Source: Phyllobacterium myrsinacearum
Lineage (GTDB): Bacteria > Pseudomonadota > Alphaproteobacteria > Rhizobiales > Rhizobiaceae
NCBI RefSeq assembly: GCF_002980555.1
Contig: NZ_PVBT01000007.1
Coordinates: forward strand, 124,001 to 188,000
Direction: 5' to 3'
DNA: 64,000 bases
Part shown: positions 7,413 through 52,892 of the stretch, in pieces
Layout of the letters: every line of letters begins with the position of its first letter
Numbering within the stretch: the stretch's first letter is position 1
Notes under the pieces: model-generated
Databases searched by the model: none
Seen by the model: only the letters and a program-made list of their open reading frames with translations
Told to the model about the DNA's origin: nothing
Position numbers and translations under genes: made by a program

Positions 7413-9125
7413 ATGCCCGCTAGAATCTCCCGCTCCGCCTATGCCCGCATGTTCGGTCCGACAACCGGCGACAGGGTGCGGCTTGCCGATACGGAGCTGT
7501 TCATCGAAGTGGAAAAGGATTTCACCATCTATGGCGAAGAGGTGAAGTTCGGCGGCGGCAAGGTCATCCGCGACGGCATGGGACAGAGCCAGATTGCCCG
7601 GGCTGACGGCGCCGTCGATACGGTCATCACCAATGCCCTGATCGTCGACCATACGGGCATCTACAAGGCGGATGTCGGGCTCAAGGACGGGCTGATTGCC
7701 GCCATCGGCAAGGCCGGCAATCCCGACACACAGCCGGGCGTGACCATCATTATCGGACCGGGCACGGAAATCATCGCCGGGGAAGGCAAGATACTGACGG
7801 CCGGCGGCATGGACGCGCATATCCACTTCATCTGCCCGCAGCAGATCGATGAGGCGCTGATGTCCGGCGTCACCACCATGTTCGGCGGCGGCACCGGCCC
7901 CGCGCATGGCACGCTGGCGACCACCTGCACGCCCGGCCCATGGCATCTGGCGCGGATGATCCAGGCCTTCGATTCCATTCCGATGAACCTCGGACTATCG
8001 GGCAAGGGCAATGCTTCGCAGCCGAAAGCGCTGGAGGAGATGATCCTCGGCGGCGCCTGCTCGCTGAAACTGCATGAGGATTGGGGCACCACGCCGGCCG
8101 CCATCGACAATTGCCTCACCGTTGCCGACCGGTTCGACATTCAGGTGATGATCCATACGGACACGCTCAACGAGAGCGGGTTTGTCGAGGATACGGTTGC
8201 AGCCTTCAAGGGGCGCACGATCCATGCCTTTCATACGGAAGGTGCGGGCGGCGGGCATGCGCCCGATATCATCAAGATATGCGGTCTGCCCAATGTCATT
8301 CCCTCATCGACGAATCCGACCCGGCCCTACACGAAGAACACCATTGCCGAACATCTCGACATGCTGATGGTCTGCCATCACCTGTCATCGTCGATTCCCG
8401 AAGACGTGGCATTCGCCGAAAGCCGTATCCGCAAGGAAACCATTGCTGCGGAAGATATCCTGCACGACATCGGCGCCTTCTCGATCATCTCGTCGGACAG
8501 CCAGGCCATGGGCCGCGTCGGCGAAGTTCTGATCCGCACCTGGCAGACCGCCGACAAGATGAAACGCCAGCGCGGAAGCCTGCCGCAGGAAACCGGCGAC
8601 AACGATAATTTCCGCGTGAAACGTTATATTGCCAAATATACGATCAATCCGGCGATTGCGCAGGGCGTGTCCCGGCATATCGGCTCGATCGAAACGGGCA
8701 AACGCGCCGACCTCGTCCTGTGGAACCCGGCCTTCTTCGGTGTCAAACCCGACATGGTGCTGCTGGGCGGCTCCATCGCCGCCGCACCGATGGGCGACCC
8801 CAACGCATCCATTCCAACACCGCAGCCCGTGCATTACCGCCCCATGTTCGCCACCTTCGGCAAGAATGTCTCCAATTCCTCTGTTGTCTTTGTCAGCAAG
8901 GCATCGATTGAGGCTGGCCTGCGCCAGTCGCTTGGCACGGACAAGCACCTGATCGGTGTCGAGAACACCCGCGGCGGTATTTCAAAGGCATCGATGATCC
9001 ACAATGACGCCACGCCGCACGTGGAAGTTGACCCTGAAACCTATGAAGTGCGCGCCGACGGCGAACTTCTGACATGCGAACCGGCGACGGTGCTGCCCAT
9101 GGCGCAGCGCTACTTCCTGTTCTGA
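7413..9125 (+). CDS. ureC: Urease subunit alpha (catalytic)
   Basis: Catalytic subunit that hydrolyses urea to ammonia and carbamate at a di-nickel site. 570 residues, the normal length. The Ni ligands H136 and H138 are in MDAHIHF, the carbamylated lysine is K219 in SLKLHEDWG, and the flap and active-site region [15 protein letters not shown] is intact, as is the Asp ligand region SSDSQAMG. The frame is open further upstream, but [17 protein letters not shown] is the family N-terminus and AGGAGAG lies just before this ATG. A promoter must lie in 7226-7412, because the preceding gene is divergent. Confidence 0.98.
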
Positions 9126-13088: not shown

Positions 13089-13122
13089 TGCTGCATTGCA
13101 CCAGGTGCATTGCTGCTATGCA
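13089..13122 (+). promoter_or_regulatory. Tandem 12-bp box (22-bp period) upstream of the sRNA
   Basis: TGCTGCATTGCA at 13089-13100 and TGCTGCTATGCA at 13111-13122, their starts 22 bp apart (two helical turns). The same arrangement precedes the DUF1127 gene at 16877-16910; over 42 aligned bases the two regions share 33. The second copy overlaps the expected -35 position if TATTAA at 13133-13138 is the -10. The half-dyad TTGC-N6-GCA is compatible with a LysR-type activator such as VtlR/LsrB (inference). Confidence 0.6.
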
Positions 13123-13144
13123 ATATTATCTGTATTAAATCACA

Positions 13145-13290
13145 CCAATGGAGTTATTGTTGGATCAGGAATTTTCGACAGCGTCACCTCCTCCCGGCCC
13201 TGTCGAAACGGTTGGCCTCTTCTCCTCCCAGAAGGCCTTCCAAAACCAACGAAACCCACCGCACCTCCTCCCGCGGTGGGTTTTGTTGTT
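13145..13290 (+). ncRNA. Three-hairpin anti-Shine-Dalgarno sRNA (alpha-r14/cuckoo-like)
   Basis: Three consecutive hairpins each expose a CCTCC-type loop. Hairpin 1: TTTCGACAG at 13173-13181 pairs with 13200-13208, and its loop holds CCTCCTCCC at 13187-13195. Hairpin 2: GGCC/TTCT arms around 13213-13234 with CTCCTCCC at 13222-13229. Hairpin 3: AAACCCACCGC at 13252-13262 pairs with 13273-13283 around ACCTCCTCCC, and is followed by TGTTGTTT. Hairpin 3 is both an intrinsic terminator and a loop carrier. This matches the alphaproteobacterial alpha-r14/cuckoo sRNAs, thought to bind Shine-Dalgarno sequences. The 5' end is estimated from a possible -10 (TATTAA, 13133-13138). Confidence 0.78.
13252..13290 (+). 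terminator. Intrinsic terminator of the sRNA
   Basis: Perfect 11-bp stem with a 10-base loop followed by TGTTGTTTC. A-rich sequence on the 5' side makes it weakly usable from the other strand too. Confidence 0.75.
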
Positions 13291-13330
13291 TCAGGGCTCT
13301 CCCAACTCCCCCTTGTGCGACGCGTCAAAC

Positions 13331-13367
13331 GAAAACACCGGCCAGAGTTTGATCTCTTCGGCCGGTG
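13331..13367 (-). terminator. Terminator of the small lipoprotein gene
   Basis: CACCGGCC at 13336-13343 pairs with GGCCGGTG at 13360-13367. On the minus strand the stem is followed by TTTTCGTTT. It lies about 40 bases past the stop of the lipoprotein gene at 13408-13638. Confidence 0.6.
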
Positions 13368-13407
13368 CTATGAAAGATATTCAAGTCTTTGACGCTGTAT
13401 CCAGGCT

Positions 13408-13638
13408 CTACTGCACCGCGTTCTGGGCACCCGGTGTCTCGGGAACTTTTGAGGGAACGGCCTTCTGGGTCAGGGACTTGGGTGGTGGAACAAAATGCGT
13501 GTCCTTTGCCGGCGACAGGGCAGCAGCGGCCGCTTTTGGACTGGTGCTCGTGCCGGTGGTCGTTCCGGTACTCGTGCTTGTGCTGCAGGCCGCCAGAGCC
13601 ATGAGGGACAAGACAGCCAAGGGTAATGCAATGCGCAT
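13408..13638 (-). CDS. Small lipoprotein of unknown function
   Basis: 76 residues from the ATG at 13636-13638, chosen because AAAGGA lies at a good distance. The lipobox LAAC at the end of MRIALPLAVLSLMALAAC predicts lipidation at Cys18. The mature part is low-complexity Ser/Thr/Gly, then Ala/Pro-rich, typical of small envelope lipoproteins. No domain recognised. A terminator hairpin follows it. Confidence 0.75.
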   Translation of the reverse strand: MRIALPLAVLSLMALAACSTSTSTGTTTGTSTSPKAAAAALSPAKDTHFVPPPKSLTQKAVPSKVPETPGAQNAVQ

Positions 13639-13773
13639 TCGATATTCCTTTGTTTGCATGAAAGAGCCGCCCAAGCGACACTTAAGACAATCACGCCCGC
13701 TTGACCACCCAATCATGCCAAATGGGCGTCAAATAAAGCTCGGCCCCCATCCTTGAAAACCGCGAAGAGATTT

Positions 13774-15036
13774 CTAGCGAATAAGGATTGCCCTGAGGTC
13801 ATTGACATTGGTGCCGGTTGGTCCCGGCACGAAGAGATCGCCGATGGCATGGAACGCCGACCAGGCATCATTGCCGTTGAGATAGGCCGATGCATCGAGC
13901 CCCTTCGCCAAAAGCCGGGCGATGCTGCCGCTGTCGGCAAAGGCGCCGGCATTGTCCTCCGAGCCGTCGATTCCATCCGTGTCCGCCGCAAAGGCGCTGA
14001 TGCCGTCACATCCGTCGATATCGAGCGCGAGGGACAACAGGAACTCGCTGTTGCGTCCGCCCTTGCCTTTTCCCCGCACGGTCACCGTGGTTTCACCGCC
14101 GGAAAGCAGGACGACGGGTTTGGCAAACGGCTGGTTTTTGGCCAGGACCTGCTTGGCCAGAGCCGCATGCACATGCGCCACCTCCCGCGCCTCGCCTTCA
14201 ATCGCATCGGACAGGACGACAGCCTCCACGCCAAGCGAGCGGGCGGCAGCGGCCGATGCGTCCAGCGATACGGCCGCGGAGGCAATGACCCGGTGCTCAT
14301 GCGCCGCAAACACCGCATCCGATGGCTTGGGCGCGTCGGCCGCAGCCGACTGCAGATGTTTCAGGGCTGCCGCCGGCAGGGCAAGATTGTAGCGTTCGAC
14401 GATCCGCAGGGCATCCTCGCGGGTTATGGCGTCGGCAACCGTGGGGCCGGACGCGACAAAGGCAGGATTGTCGCCGGGTATATCGGACACGATCAATGAA
14501 AAGACACGGGCGGGATAGGCGGCAGCGGCCAGCCTTCCGCCCTTGATCGTCGACAGATGTTTGCGCACGGCATTCATTGCGGAAATCGGCGCTCCGGACG
14601 CGAGCAGCGCCCTGTTGACCGCGATCTCGTCATCGAGCGTCATGCCTTCCGGCGGCGACGGCAGCAAGGCCGACCCGCCACCGGAGATCAGCGCGACCAC
14701 CAGATCATCACCGGTCAGGCCCGAAACGGTTTCGAGCAGGCGCTTTGAGGCAACAAGACCTGCCGCATCCGGCACCGGATGCGACGCTTCGATAATCTCG
14801 ATGCGCTCGCAGGGAACGCCAAAGCCGTACCGGGTGACCACCAAGCCTTCCAGCGGGCCGTCCCAGGCCTTTTCAAAGGCGCTCGCCATTTGCGCCGACC
14901 CCTTGCCCGCACCGATCACAATGGTCCGGCCCTTGGGCCTTTCCGGCAGATGCGCGGCAATGGTGCGCTGCGGATCGGCGGCTGCGACGGCGGCCTCAAA
15001 CAACGTCTTGAAAAATTCCTTATCCTGCATGCGCAT
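13774..15036 (-). CDS. Glycerate 2-kinase (GckA/TtuD, MOFRL family)
   Basis: About 420 residues, close to the family length. It phosphorylates D-glycerate to 2-phosphoglycerate in serine-cycle, glyoxylate or tartrate metabolism; older annotations call it hydroxypyruvate reductase. Typical blocks are IVIGAGKGSAQMA, ISGGGSALLPSPPEG, SDIPGDNPAFVASGPT and the MOFRL part with GGETTVTV, then AADTDGIDG. The start overlaps the stop of the upstream Dabb gene (TGATG), so the two are probably translationally coupled. A GTG one codon earlier or an ATG two codons later cannot be excluded. Confidence 0.93.
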   Translation of the reverse strand: MRMQDKEFFKTLFEAAVAAADPQRTIAAHLPERPKGRTIVIGAGKGSAQMASAFEKAWDGPLEGLVVTRYGFGVPCERIEIIEASHPVPDAAGLVASKRLLETVSGLTGDDLVVALISGGGSALLPSPPEGMTLDDEIAVNRALLASGAPISAMNAVRKHLSTIKGGRLAAAAYPARVFSLIVSDIPGDNPAFVASGPTVADAITREDALRIVERYNLALPAAALKHLQSAAADAPKPSDAVFAAHEHRVIASAAVSLDASAAAARSLGVEAVVLSDAIEGEAREVAHVHAALAKQVLAKNQPFAKPVVLLSGGETTVTVRGKGKGGRNSEFLLSLALDIDGCDGISAFAADTDGIDGSEDNAGAFADSGSIARLLAKGLDASAYLNGNDAWSAFHAIGDLFVPGPTGTNVNDLRAILIR

Positions 15037-15362
15037 CACATATCCAGATCAAAGACAAAAACACCCTGAACACCGGCGGCAGCGGCCGCAACAATGCGCC
15101 CGCCGATAGCCCTGTGCCCGGCGTCGTCAAGGTAGGCGTCACGCGCTTGCGCATCGGCGAAATCGATGATGAACCCTTCGCCAAACCCTTTGTCCATACC
15201 GGTTTCCGGGCTGACATTGGCACCCGCATGGAAGGACAGGACGCCGGGCAGTTTTCCGCAAAGCGCAGCAAGATCGTTGTATATGTCCTGCCGGGCGGCG
15301 GCGGCGACATCGTCGCGAAAACGAATAAAAACACAATGGCGTATCACGGGAGAGACTTTCAC
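15036..15362 (-). CDS. Dabb-domain (stress-responsive alpha/beta-barrel) protein
   Basis: 108 residues with the Dabb pattern: RHCVFIRFRDD at the N-terminus, LPGVLSFHAGANVSPE, and GEGFIIDFADAQARDAYL followed by a final beta strand (VFVFDLDM). Such proteins form ferredoxin-like dimers; the function is generally unknown. Start uncertain: GTG at 15362 or the GTG five codons in (VIRHCVF), neither with a good ribosome site. In a two-gene operon with the glycerate kinase. Confidence 0.85.
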   Translation of the reverse strand: MKVSPVIRHCVFIRFRDDVAAAARQDIYNDLAALCGKLPGVLSFHAGANVSPETGMDKGFGEGFIIDFADAQARDAYLDDAGHRAIGGRIVAAAAAGVQGVFVFDLDM

Positions 15363-15499
15363 TGATGGTTGGCGGCCCGATTGCGCGGTAAAGCATCAAG
15401 GCCTGTCATTATCTCGGATCAATCGATGCGTATCCTGACGGGATTACTGAAAATTGCGAGCGCTATTTCCGCCTGCTGCGCAAAATCCTCGGGTTGGGC

Positions 15500-16801
15500 T
15501 CACGTCAACAATCGTTCAACGGACATGGCTATCGACAACAGGCGGCGGTCGGCGCCATGCCGGGCAAACAGCATCAGCCCTCCCGGCAATGCAAGACCGG
15601 GCATTGGAATAGTGATCGCGGTCAAATCAAACTGGTTGGCAATCTGCGGATTGCGCAACAGCAGGCCTTCGGTCCGTTTGTAGAATTCCTCGTTCCCGCT
15701 CACATCGGCAATCGGCGGCGCTGTCATCGGCACCGTCGGCAGAGCCAGGACATCATAGGCCGCGATATACTGGTCCATTTTCCGCACCAGCGCCTGCCGC
15801 TTTTGCATCACGTCGATATAGGCGGCTTCCGAAACGCCCAGACGGCGCAACAATGGCTTTTGCACGCGCTGGTCCACATCAAGCCCGCTCTTGTCCAGCC
15901 AGTCCGCATGAACCCGGCTGCCTTCAATCCCCGCAATGGAGCCGACAGAGGTCGCTTCAGCCATGTCACCGATCAGATCATCGAGCGTGCATTCCACCAG
16001 GATCGCTCCGGCTTTTTCGCATAGGCGCAGGCTTTGCTCGAATGCCCCGGCGATAGAGGGTTCCAGTGCAGAGAGAACCGCCCCCTGCGGCAGGCCGATG
16101 CGCAAACCGCGCAAGGAGATGGGTTCAGTACGATCCGCTGCCTCGCCGGCCATGACAGCATCCGCCAAGGCACAGTCGGCGATGGAGCCCGCCAGCGGGC
16201 CAATGGAGTCAAGACTTGGCGACAGTGGAAAAGCACCCTGCAGGGGAATGCGCTTTGCGGTGGGCTTGAAACCGGCGACACCATTCAGCGCCGCGGGAAT
16301 GCGGATGGACCCGCCCGTGTCCGATCCAATGGAAATCTCGCTCGTGCCATCGGCGACAGAAATCCCGGCGCCGGTTGACGATCCTCCGGCAATGCGGCTG
16401 CTGTCGCGGGCATTTCCGGCGACCGGATAGTGCGGATTGAGACCAACGGCGGTAAAGGCGAATTCGGTCATGATTGTTTTGCCGGCAATAACGGCGCCCG
16501 CACGGCGCAAACGTTCGACGATCACCGCATCCCTGGCAGCGGACGGCGCATTTTGGCGCATGCGGGAGCCGGCGAGCGTCGGTTCGCCCGCCACATCGAA
16601 CAGATCCTTGATCGAAACGATCCTGCCATCCAGGCCGCCAAGACTGGTCCCCTCGCGCAGGCGCTGGTCCGAAGCATCCGCTTCCGCACGGGCCGTCGCC
16701 GCATAGAGCGCGACGAAAGCATGCCCGCCTCCGGCAGCGATGGCTGCAAGACTTTGCTCCAGTTTATCACGCACAGATCCGACCGGCTGAGACAAAGGCA
16801 T
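15500..16801 (-). CDS. Amidase-signature family hydrolase
   Basis: 433 residues of the GatA-like amidase fold, hydrolysing an unknown amide. The Ser-cisSer-Lys triad is visible: Lys in VSIKDLFDVAG, the cis-Ser region AGGSSTGAGISV, and the nucleophile region GSDTGGSIRIPAA. GSSTGAG replaces the more common GSSSGSA. No GatB or GatC gene is nearby, so this is a stand-alone amidase and not part of the tRNA amidotransferase. Start chosen at the ATG at 16799-16801 because GAGGGGAGG precedes it directly; two earlier ATGs lack a ribosome site. Confidence 0.9.
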   Translation of the reverse strand: MPLSQPVGSVRDKLEQSLAAIAAGGGHAFVALYAATARAEADASDQRLREGTSLGGLDGRIVSIKDLFDVAGEPTLAGSRMRQNAPSAARDAVIVERLRRAGAVIAGKTIMTEFAFTAVGLNPHYPVAGNARDSSRIAGGSSTGAGISVADGTSEISIGSDTGGSIRIPAALNGVAGFKPTAKRIPLQGAFPLSPSLDSIGPLAGSIADCALADAVMAGEAADRTEPISLRGLRIGLPQGAVLSALEPSIAGAFEQSLRLCEKAGAILVECTLDDLIGDMAEATSVGSIAGIEGSRVHADWLDKSGLDVDQRVQKPLLRRLGVSEAAYIDVMQKRQALVRKMDQYIAAYDVLALPTVPMTAPPIADVSGNEEFYKRTEGLLLRNPQIANQFDLTAITIPMPGLALPGGLMLFARHGADRRLLSIAMSVERLLT

Positions 16802-16876
16802 CCTCCCCTCACACATGAACTGCATTGTCTATAACGCCGCCCGCTGAAAATTCAAAAGGGTTCGCATTGCCGGTTA

Positions 16877-16910
16877 TGCTGCCATGCAGCATGCTCATTG
16901 CTGCCATGCA
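16877..16910 (+). promoter_or_regulatory. Tandem 12-bp box (22-bp period) upstream of DUF1127 gene
   Basis: Two identical copies of TGCTGCCATGCA at 16877-16888 and 16899-16910. The same box pair with the same spacing sits before the sRNA at 13145. It lies 77 bp upstream of the DUF1127 start codon, in the same orientation relative to transcription as at the sRNA. The first copy also forms part of the dyad ATGCTG-N5-CAGCAT (16876-16892). Confidence 0.65.
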
Positions 16911-16986
16911 ACATTAGCAATTTTCATGCGGCCCAACGCGCCGCACTATTTCCCCGGGAGGTTGATCAAAACAAGGGGAATACCAA

Positions 16987-17130
16987 ATGAGCCTTCGCAA
17001 CCACATCCAAAAATGGCGCCAGTATCGTCAGAACCTGCATGAACTGAGATTGTGCACCGATCGCAATCTCGCCGATCTGGGCATCGCCCGCTCGGATATC
17101 CGCCGCGTCGCGTGGCAGGCCTGCAACTGA
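16987..17130 (+). CDS. DUF1127 small basic protein
   Basis: 47 residues. It begins MSLRNHIQKWRQYRQNLHEL and carries the DUF1127 core DRNLADLGIARSDIRRVAW. Net positive charge; no signal peptide. AAGGGG stands at a good distance before the ATG. DUF1127 proteins in rhizobia and Brucella are small, strongly regulated, and have been tied to RNA turnover, phosphate or fucose uptake and LysR regulator VtlR (family knowledge). The tandem box upstream links it to the sRNA locus 3.8 kb away. Confidence 0.9.
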   Translation: MSLRNHIQKWRQYRQNLHELRLCTDRNLADLGIARSDIRRVAWQACN

Positions 17131-17139
17131 GCCTTTCAA

Positions 17140-17187
17140 CGCCCGCATTGATGCGGGTGCAATCGAGCAGGCCGGCGACGGCCTGCT
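17140..17187. terminator. Two hairpins between convergent DUF1127 and MipA genes
   Basis: CCCGCAT-TG-ATGCGGG around 17141-17156, then AGCAGGCCG at 17166-17174 pairing with 17179-17187. Both stems are perfect but neither has a U-tract on either strand. Position suggests transcript ends from both sides. Confidence 0.45.
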
Positions 17188-18033
17188 TCAGTGACCGACG
17201 CCGAATGAGTAATTCCAGGTCACGCCAATAGCCTTCTGATCCTTGGACCCGAGTTTCGGCACGATCGGGCTATCCTCCGCGTCACCCGCCAGCCGGTCAT
17301 ACCGGCCGAAGACCTGGACGCTCCACGCGTCGGAGAATGAATAGGTGGTGGCAGCAACGATCCCGTATGACTTGACGCCGCCACCGGGGGTGTAAGCCTC
17401 GACCCGGTGATTGTTGTGGGATTCCTCTTCCGTCACGCCGAAGGTGTTGCGCATATAGGTGCTGTCGGCAAGCGACAGGCGCGGGCCGATGGAGAACAGG
17501 AATTTATCATAGCGCTGGAACACGTCAGCCGAGAGATCGGCCACGAGCCCCTCGGAGTTATTGAAGGCCTGCCTCACCTCGGCGCGCACGCGCAAGCGGT
17601 CCTGGATCGGCCAAAACTGTGCAAACACACCGCCATCCACCGTCCATGAAATATGGCGCAGGCCGACAAAGCCACTGTCATCGGAACGGGAGCGGCCGGA
17701 GCGGAAGCCGATGACGGGGCCGATTTCCAGCCCGCCGAGGGTCAAAAGCGTGTAATCGATATTGTCATCGGGCGCACTCATGCCCTCGGGTTCATCGCCG
17801 CGCCGGATATCGAAGGACGGCATGAAACCGAAGCCTTTGGAGCGCGCACCTTCAAACTTGCTGCCATATTCGACGCTGGCGCCCACCGTCACGATCCAGC
17901 GCGCCGGATTGACGGGTTTGCCGTCACTGGCAATCGGGTCGGAATCTGCCGCAAATGCATAGCTGGCAGACGCGGTCACAAGACCAGCGTACGCCAGCAC
18001 GGCGGCAAATTGCCTTATACAGCGATAGATCAT
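17188..18033 (-). CDS. MipA/OmpV-family outer membrane protein
   Basis: 281 residues from the ATG at 18031-18033. The signal peptide runs from MIYRCIRQFAAVLAYAGL to about SYAFA. The mature protein alternates short amphipathic strands, with VTVGASVEYGSKFEGA, then LPSF-type FMPSFDIRRG, GPVIGFRSGRS and a C-terminal aromatic strand (GVTWNYSFGVGH) typical of beta-barrels. The MipA/OmpV family includes MltA-interacting scaffolds and porins with unknown cargo. The frame opens about 40 codons earlier, but only this start gives a signal peptide. Confidence 0.85.
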   Translation of the reverse strand: MIYRCIRQFAAVLAYAGLVTASASYAFAADSDPIASDGKPVNPARWIVTVGASVEYGSKFEGARSKGFGFMPSFDIRRGDEPEGMSAPDDNIDYTLLTLGGLEIGPVIGFRSGRSRSDDSGFVGLRHISWTVDGGVFAQFWPIQDRLRVRAEVRQAFNNSEGLVADLSADVFQRYDKFLFSIGPRLSLADSTYMRNTFGVTEEESHNNHRVEAYTPGGGVKSYGIVAATTYSFSDAWSVQVFGRYDRLAGDAEDSPIVPKLGSKDQKAIGVTWNYSFGVGH

Positions 18034-52698: not shown

Positions 52699-52788
52699 AT
52701 CGACCGCCGAAACCTCATATAATTTCCCAAAAGCTTTAGCGTCTCACCCGATTGACGCAAGCCGCCAAGAGGATTAAAGCAATTTTAT

Positions 52789-52844
52789 CCCGTGGTGATT
52801 TGGCCGGCCGGCTTGCAGCCACGTTAAACAATTTGCTAAAAGAG
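52789..52844 (+). promoter_or_regulatory. SAM-II (metA-type) riboswitch upstream of metZ
   Basis: Conserved SAM-II elements in order: CGTGGTGATTTGG, GGCTTGCAGCCACG, GTTAAACA, and GCTAAAAG. The helix GTGG/CCAC and the pseudoknot partner AU-rich and GCTAAA segments are intact. SAM-II RNAs bind S-adenosylmethionine and shut off methionine genes in alphaproteobacteria. Its 3' end runs directly into a terminator region (52843-52892) before the metZ start. Confidence 0.93.
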
Positions 52845-52892
52845 GCCCGGTCTCGTCCGGCCTTTTTGCGATTCCCGCAAGGCCGGTTTTTT
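52843..52892 (+). terminator. Expression platform: two competing hairpins, second an intrinsic terminator
   Basis: Hairpin A: AGGCCCGG at 52843-52850 can pair with CCGGCCT at 52857-52863. Hairpin B: the same CCGGCCT pairs with AGGCCGG at 52880-52886, with TGCG/CGCA inside, followed by six T (52887-52892). The two exclude each other, so B is a terminator and A a possible antiterminator or SAM-linked switch. Confidence 0.7.

Follow-up and report, generated by a model that had tools for sequence, protein, structure and literature searches.

A 34-bp tandem element with 22-bp spacing, a putative LsrB/VtlR operator, precedes both an ar14-type small RNA and a DUF1127 gene in Phyllobacterium myrsinacearum

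The stretch of DNA analyzed here, referred to as the window, comprises 64,000 nucleotides of Phyllobacterium myrsinacearum (NCBI RefSeq assembly GCF_002980555.1, contig NZ_PVBT01000007.1, positions 124,001 to 188,000 of the forward strand). It carries, on the plus strand, a small RNA (sRNA) of the ar14, or NfeR1, type and a gene for a short DUF1127 protein, each preceded by the same pair of 12-bp boxes. The sRNA is placed at 13167 to 13290, with a predicted 5' end at 13167. Rfam family ar14 (RF02344) matches positions 13170 to 13288 of the plus strand, scoring 77.7 bits (gathering score, 58.8), and folding of the 13167 to 13290 stretch gives three hairpins (-54.9 kcal/mol, z -6.66). A perfect CCUCCUCCC is found in two of the loops, and the middle loop reads UCUCCUCCC. 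Members of the ar14 family silence mRNAs via such anti-Shine-Dalgarno loops (PMC10746234). The DUF1127 protein, encoded at 16987 to 17130 on the plus strand, matches PF06568 with 44.9 bits (cutoff, 23.3), and its length of 47 amino acids is the same in all nine genus genomes examined. Between the two loci lie open reading frames (ORFs) for a MOFRL/DUF4147 protein, a 108-amino-acid protein that gave no NCBIfam match, and an amidase on the minus strand.

The box TGCTGC-N2-TGCA (TGCTGCNNTGCA) occurs exactly four times in the window, always on the plus strand, and the four copies form two tandem pairs with a period of 22 bp. Upstream of the sRNA, the distal box (TGCTGCATTGCA) is at 13089 to 13100 and the proximal box (TGCTGCTATGCA) at 13111 to 13122. 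Upstream of the DUF1127 gene, the distal box (TGCTGCCATGCA), also supported by a nine-genome genus alignment, is at 16877 to 16888 and the proximal box at 16899 to 16910; all four are exact matches to the pattern. Shuffled sequences give a chance expectation of 0.35 copies in the window, and none of 100 shuffles reached four. The 42-base regions that begin at 13089 and 16877 are identical at 33 of 42 positions. A sequence-only reading of the window had reported the two pairs with starts 22 bp apart, the 33 shared positions and a plus-strand transcript facing each tandem, and had proposed that one LysR-type activator drives both loci as a small regulon. The window pattern search, a recount and the Rfam, fold and PF06568 results bear out the three reported observations.

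The whole 5.4-Mb genome contains two exact matches to the 34-bp tandem and four more at 3 mismatches, giving six at 3 or fewer, and a control search with the backwards pattern returned none across the same genome. Hits are thus few, and the objection that the element might turn up at many unrelated places does not apply. One of the 3-mismatch matches precedes a DUF1127-sRNA operon (C1:909359-909392), one is a reverse-strand reading of the DUF1127 site in the window, and two are others. The single box is far more frequent, with 30 exact copies genome-wide; 19 of the 26 outside the window fall within a mechanically called ORF of at least 70 amino acids and 7 do not. We therefore rejected the single box as a regulon finder and treat only the tandem as informative.

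Conservation within the genus is concentrated on the element itself. Over 5.8 kb the sequence is 91% identical to a contig named P. calauticae, in keeping with its placement in Phyllobacterium. The sRNA tandem was present in all 13 genus genomes searched. The DUF1127 tandem was found at 3 or fewer mismatches in nine of the 13, in the same orientation and 3,694 to 3,788 bp from the sRNA tandem, and a weaker version could be discerned by eye in a tenth (G063). Within the 34 bp, the invariant fraction was 0.71 for the sRNA site (24 of 34 columns, 13 genomes) and 0.62 for the DUF1127 site (9 genomes). In the 60 columns upstream of the tandem it was 0.00, in an ungapped, box-anchored alignment in which upstream indels also lower the value.

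The tandem could likewise be followed through the family, where it occurs at 2 or fewer mismatches in 97 of 199 genomes, with control searches giving 0 forward and 3 reverse hits. After two double readings were removed, the 128 readings represent 126 distinct sites, of which 85 precede a DUF1127 gene and/or an sRNA-like CCTCC cluster. These divide into 62 with DUF1127 followed by an sRNA-like cluster, 15 with an sRNA alone and 8 with DUF1127 alone, some of them reaching a contig end. To classify the sites, we used CCTCC clusters and a DUF1127 profile derived from three of this genome's proteins; the sRNA call is hence not Rfam based. At one locus (L139, G049:C66:219517-219572), three boxes stand in a row, as two overlapping registers 22 bp apart, before a DUF1127-sRNA operon. 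In several others (L143, L144, L145, L149, L208 and L209 among them), the sRNA cluster begins about 420 to 465 nucleotides past the box rather than about 250 to 290, with roughly 190 extra nucleotides between DUF1127 and the sRNA. Beyond the family, occurrence of the strict tandem is patchy: an order-level search at 1 or fewer mismatches found it in 14 of 150 genomes. Of the 145 that are not family members, 10 have it, and three of these belong to one genus.

To approach the question from the sRNA side, we sampled the upstream regions of 36 ar14 copies among the 150 best-listed ar14 matches, irrespective of the box. One or more boxes exceeding the 95% null level were present in 27 of them, and exceeding the 99% level in 24. 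One box is thus what an ar14 copy usually has, with the full tandem characteristic of a part of the family. The remaining nine regions had no box above the 95% level, and some ar14 copies are probably under other control. A fourth ar14-like copy of this genome, outside the window (G000:C7:92456-92571, locus L019), directly follows a phasin-like gene in the manner of a 3'-untranslated-region sRNA, and no tandem box was found in the 400 bp preceding it.

A scan of the named genomes with the gap left free (0 to 30 bp) returned at least 126 hits in at least 119 stretches. Among the matches listed, 18 have the 22-bp spacing, and 17 of these precede a DUF1127 gene or ar14-like sRNA (9 hits) or a conserved 45-amino-acid ORF (8 hits), the eighteenth being from a Lachnospiraceae genome. 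At other spacings, 1 of 108 listed hits was associated with DUF1127 or the sRNA. Conservation of the 22-bp spacing in related genomes, on which the sequence-only reading had staked its case, was thus borne out in genus and family. The 45-amino-acid ORF (MSKTA...RNGDLPxFGL) begins with an ATG 90 to 94 nucleotides past the box, and six of its eight contigs are named Bradyrhizobium. For the one such sequence searched, neither Pfam nor NCBIfam returned a match; the ORF may correspond to DUF1127 in diverged form. A second common spacing among the matches listed, 26 to 29 bp, came mainly from Rhodobacterales among the named loci. These pairs have a -35-like CTTGAA between the boxes, and at 4 of the 12 loci examined they precede a similar 149-amino-acid phasin-like ORF. 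Given the phasin-like genes seen there, we rejected these pairs as instances of the same element.

Associated family sites share the consensus TGtTGCatTGCACAA..cGCAtTGCTGCcATGCA, followed at fixed distances by CTT..aA about 9 bp beyond and CcTATcT about 32 bp beyond. These offsets place the element at about -78 to -45, which is an activator position. Transferred to the window, they predict a weak core promoter for the sRNA at 13132 to 13160 (plus), with a -35-like GTATTA at 13132 to 13137, a 17-nucleotide spacer and a -10-like TATTGT at 13155 to 13160. Together with the genus alignment, they predict one for DUF1127 at 16921 to 16949 (plus), with TTTTCA at 16921 to 16926, 17 nucleotides and CACTAT at 16944 to 16949.

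The sequence of the element points to LsrB, known as VtlR in Brucella. At the Sinorhizobium meliloti NfeR1 promoter, LsrB binds TGCA-N6-GCAT and activates directly, on the evidence of pull-down and gel-shift experiments, point mutations and fusions (PMC10746234). For abcR1 an LsrB/VtlR consensus of GCAT-N3-TG-N3-T has been described, with T-N11-A boxes in tandem in most sequences (PMC8844928, PMC7486931), and VtlR of Brucella activates three DUF1127 genes and abcR2 through the motif CAATGCAGCCATGCA (PMC12595884). The sRNA site of the window contains both published forms exactly, GCAT-N3-TG-N3-T at 13107 to 13119 and TGCA-N6-GCAT at 13097 to 13110, and a count by eye shows 16896 to 16910 of the DUF1127 site to agree with CAATGCAGCCATGCA in 13 of its 15 positions. 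The genome also offers a candidate regulator, a gene with LysR domains at G000:C1:284561-285451. It has a trxB-like ORF before it, identified by reading, and an AbcR-like sRNA after it. This is the published order around vtlR, with trxB before and abcR after, VtlR being an activator of the AbcR sRNA (PMC7486931). The AbcR-like copy scores 34.9 bits with RF00519, below the 41-bit threshold, and its promoter shows GCAT-N3-TG-N3-T by eye. RF00519 was rejected as an AbcR marker, as its best hit was a suhB-adjacent sRNA. A close relative of the LysR protein is present in 196 of the 199 family genomes, which makes its presence uninformative as a phylogenetic test.

We consider it likely, with a probability of roughly 0.84, that each 34-bp tandem is an LsrB operator and that the two operators drive the sRNA and DUF1127 loci as halves of one unit of the type termed CIN1. 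Binding, tetramer formation and activation by LsrB are what we infer from the sequence, conservation, position and spacing of the element and from the presence of the LysR gene. With two T-N11-A-type boxes spaced by 22 bp, close to two turns of the helix, a pair of LsrB dimers would sit as a tetramer on one face of the DNA. From roughly -78 to -45 relative to the transcription start, LsrB could then act by class I activation, bringing RNA polymerase to a sigma-70-type promoter that is itself weak. One tandem would drive an sRNA that masks Shine-Dalgarno sequences by its CCUCCUCCC loops, and the other the 47-amino-acid DUF1127 protein. The proposal of one LysR-type activator for both loci appears consistent with all sequence tests run, and its appeal to VtlR control of DUF1127 genes and an sRNA agrees with the literature (PMC12595884, PMC7486931). 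The notion of a small regulon fared less evenly. One further DUF1127-sRNA operon with a 3-mismatch tandem supports it; the other such operon has a weak tandem (7 mismatches), and six other DUF1127-domain hits lack a good box within 400 bp upstream.

The association of DUF1127 with sRNAs has been named the CIN1 locus in a review, and in Rhodobacter a DUF1127 gene is cotranscribed with the CcsR sRNAs (PMC10253847), as the sequence-only reading had stated. At two other places in the Phyllobacterium genome, on C1 and C3, an ar14 copy comes immediately after a DUF1127 gene. The single-transcript arrangement is not found in the window, where the DUF1127 gene and the sRNA are 3.8 kb apart with other ORFs between. 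Downstream of the DUF1127 gene, a fold and motif scan detected no CCTCCTCCC, and none of the nine genus genomes examined has a CCTCC cluster after the gene; a hairpin at 17166 to 17188 (plus) lies past the stop codon, where operon-type loci have the sRNA. The pair would thus represent the halves of a CIN1-type unit that in most box-bearing relatives forms one transcript, DUF1127 and then an ar14/CcsR-type sRNA. With the halves 3.7 to 3.8 kb apart in the genus and each under its own operator, coregulation could be kept without cotranscription. One unit may have been parted, or two copies may each have lost a part.

The separated halves might also be relinked in trans. The sequence GGGAGG, complementary to CCUCCC of the sRNA loops, is located at 16956 to 16961 (plus), where the DUF1127 mRNA is predicted to begin. 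It occurs at the predicted transcript start (offset 79 or 81) in all nine genus leaders and in none of 63 operon-type leaders. LsrB would in that case switch on both DUF1127 and an sRNA able to pair with the 5' end of its mRNA, forming a feed-forward loop in place of cotranscription. Predicted sRNA-leader duplexes range from -13.6 to -19.2 kcal/mol, only moderately better than shuffles (mean -11.2, standard deviation 2.9, with 7% reaching the observed mean), and all sequences are from one genus. We regard the pairing as a lead that is doubtful on balance; alternatively, GGGAGG may be a ribosome standby or initiation sequence.

The most serious competitor of LsrB is PhaR, the polyhydroxybutyrate-responsive repressor. 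If the boxes were its operators, the sRNA and DUF1127 would be tied to storage metabolism. PhaR recognizes CTGC-N3-GCAG. The distal DUF1127 box reads CTGC-CAT-GCAG, and the GCAG half is absent from the other three boxes of the window. The pairs of TGCTGCNNTGCA at 26 to 29 bp described above, with their phasin-like ORFs, fit PhaR, and in this genome the phasin-like gene carries, just upstream of its -10-like TATACT, the sequence TGTTGCATTGCACAA, which is the distal-box consensus of the family. In the window, the boxes are instead upstream of the predicted promoter, in an activator position, and not over the -35. Phylogenetic distribution, taken alone, mildly favors PhaR. This genome has one PhaR gene, 174 of the 199 family genomes have one, and a tandem associated with DUF1127 or the sRNA was counted by hand in 72 of the 174 PhaR-positive genomes against 1 of the 25 PhaR-less ones, many of which are small or divergent, so that the latter figure may reflect lineage. 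In 12 genomes that lack PhaR and have LsrB, however, 17 of 28 ar14 upstream regions keep GCA-N3-CWGM-N-ATGCA (0.01 expected from shuffles), a pattern written after the PhaR-less sequences had been seen. Six of the 17 proximal cores are at -55 to -58 from the sRNA and 11 at -256 to -395, ahead of DUF1127. CTGC-N3-GCAG occurs in only 1 of the same 28 regions. Moreover, the pull-down on the S. meliloti NfeR1 promoter recovered LsrB and NtrC (PMC10746234). PhaR control is therefore improbable, and LsrB is far likelier.

Several observations weigh against LsrB as the regulator as well. The DUF1127 site departs from each of the two published forms by one base, TCAT for GCAT. The LysR gene is a candidate lsrB orthologue by its neighborhood and the published gene order, and an NCBIfam search gave no equivalog at cutoff for it among the best 25 of 59 hits. 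Genome G031, whose assembly is 96% complete, has two associated tandems with no LsrB hit and no PhaR hit, possibly through an assembly gap. Among the 36 ar14 regions sampled, a strong tandem at 22 bp occurs in only 5, and the after-the-fact core pattern used in the PhaR comparison in only 4. A sigma-70 consensus scan identified no promoter at either locus of the window; this and the weak hexamers are presumably due to activator dependence. Finally, 41 of the 126 family sites precede neither gene type. Several of these lie between divergent ORFs, and the genome encodes many regulators, so that sites of this kind may serve more than one factor. Both loci might then be controlled by a different regulator, LysR-type or not, whose site is similar. 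We find this quite improbable, as the element holds the published LsrB/VtlR forms before the published types of target. Chance or recent duplication of one region from the other, without regulatory meaning, might explain 33 of 42 shared positions 3.8 kb apart but is hardly credible, since 13 and 9 genomes conserve the box columns but not the flanks, and the same element recurs family-wide before these gene types with a near-empty control.

Rfam matches elsewhere in the window were 5_ureB_sRNA at 7565 to 7854 on the minus strand (140.1 bits) and the alphaproteobacterial SAM riboswitch at 52782 to 52861 on the plus strand (79.5 bits).

Both loci thus appear to be a new, well-conserved member of a known regulon, which would make them known biology and not a new system. 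That LsrB activates NfeR1 and that VtlR activates DUF1127 genes has already been published, and because the ar14/NfeR1 family is LsrB activated in S. meliloti, the one-activator proposal largely predicts known biology. What is added is the family-wide 22-bp tandem geometry, the pair as separated CIN1-type halves, and the Bradyrhizobium 45-amino-acid ORF behind the same element. A literature search, with key subscription papers outside its scope, found papers in which DUF1127 and LsrB appear together and none that combines LsrB with the CIN1 operon or with the 22-bp tandem geometry. One 34-bp element of fixed geometry joins three strands, LsrB-NfeR1, VtlR-DUF1127 and the DUF1127-sRNA unit CIN1. 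It can be traced through the family and gives a usable pattern for regulon searches. The window is also a natural example of two operon parts that lie at a distance from one another, each keeping the same operator. In published work, DUF1127 proteins act on phosphate signaling through PhoR (Agrobacterium) or bind RNA (Rhodobacter) (PMC12501420, PMC10253847).

Among the closest known counterparts is the S. meliloti NfeR1 (alpha-r14) promoter, which belongs to the same sRNA family and has the same site form, TGCA-N6-GCAT. Its site is published at -72 to -57, and that of the window has a similar center, at about -61 to -64. The S. meliloti site was published as one LysR-type regulator box, whereas the window has the full 22-bp tandem, and a repressor site for NtrC has been reported in the S. 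meliloti promoter. The VtlR regulon of Brucella and Agrobacterium (abcR, DUF1127-type small proteins and vrsA) resembles the system proposed for the window in having a LysR-type activator of sRNAs and DUF1127 genes and a box of the form CAATGCAGCCATGCA or GCAT-N3-TG-N3-T. It differs in that the window has an ar14 sRNA and a DUF1127 gene within 4 kb, each behind a tandem of its own. In Rhodobacterales, the PhaR operators of phasin promoters also consist of paired TGCTGCNNTGCA-like boxes, but these flank the -35-like CTTGAA at the wider spacing, whereas those of the window are 22 bp apart and upstream of the promoter. The CIN1 locus, exemplified by the ccaF1-CcsR1-4 operon of Rhodobacter sphaeroides, likewise links a short DUF1127 protein with CCUCCUCCC-loop sRNAs; there, it is one operon with an RpoHI/RpoHII promoter (PMC10253847), whereas the window has two units, each with LsrB-type boxes.

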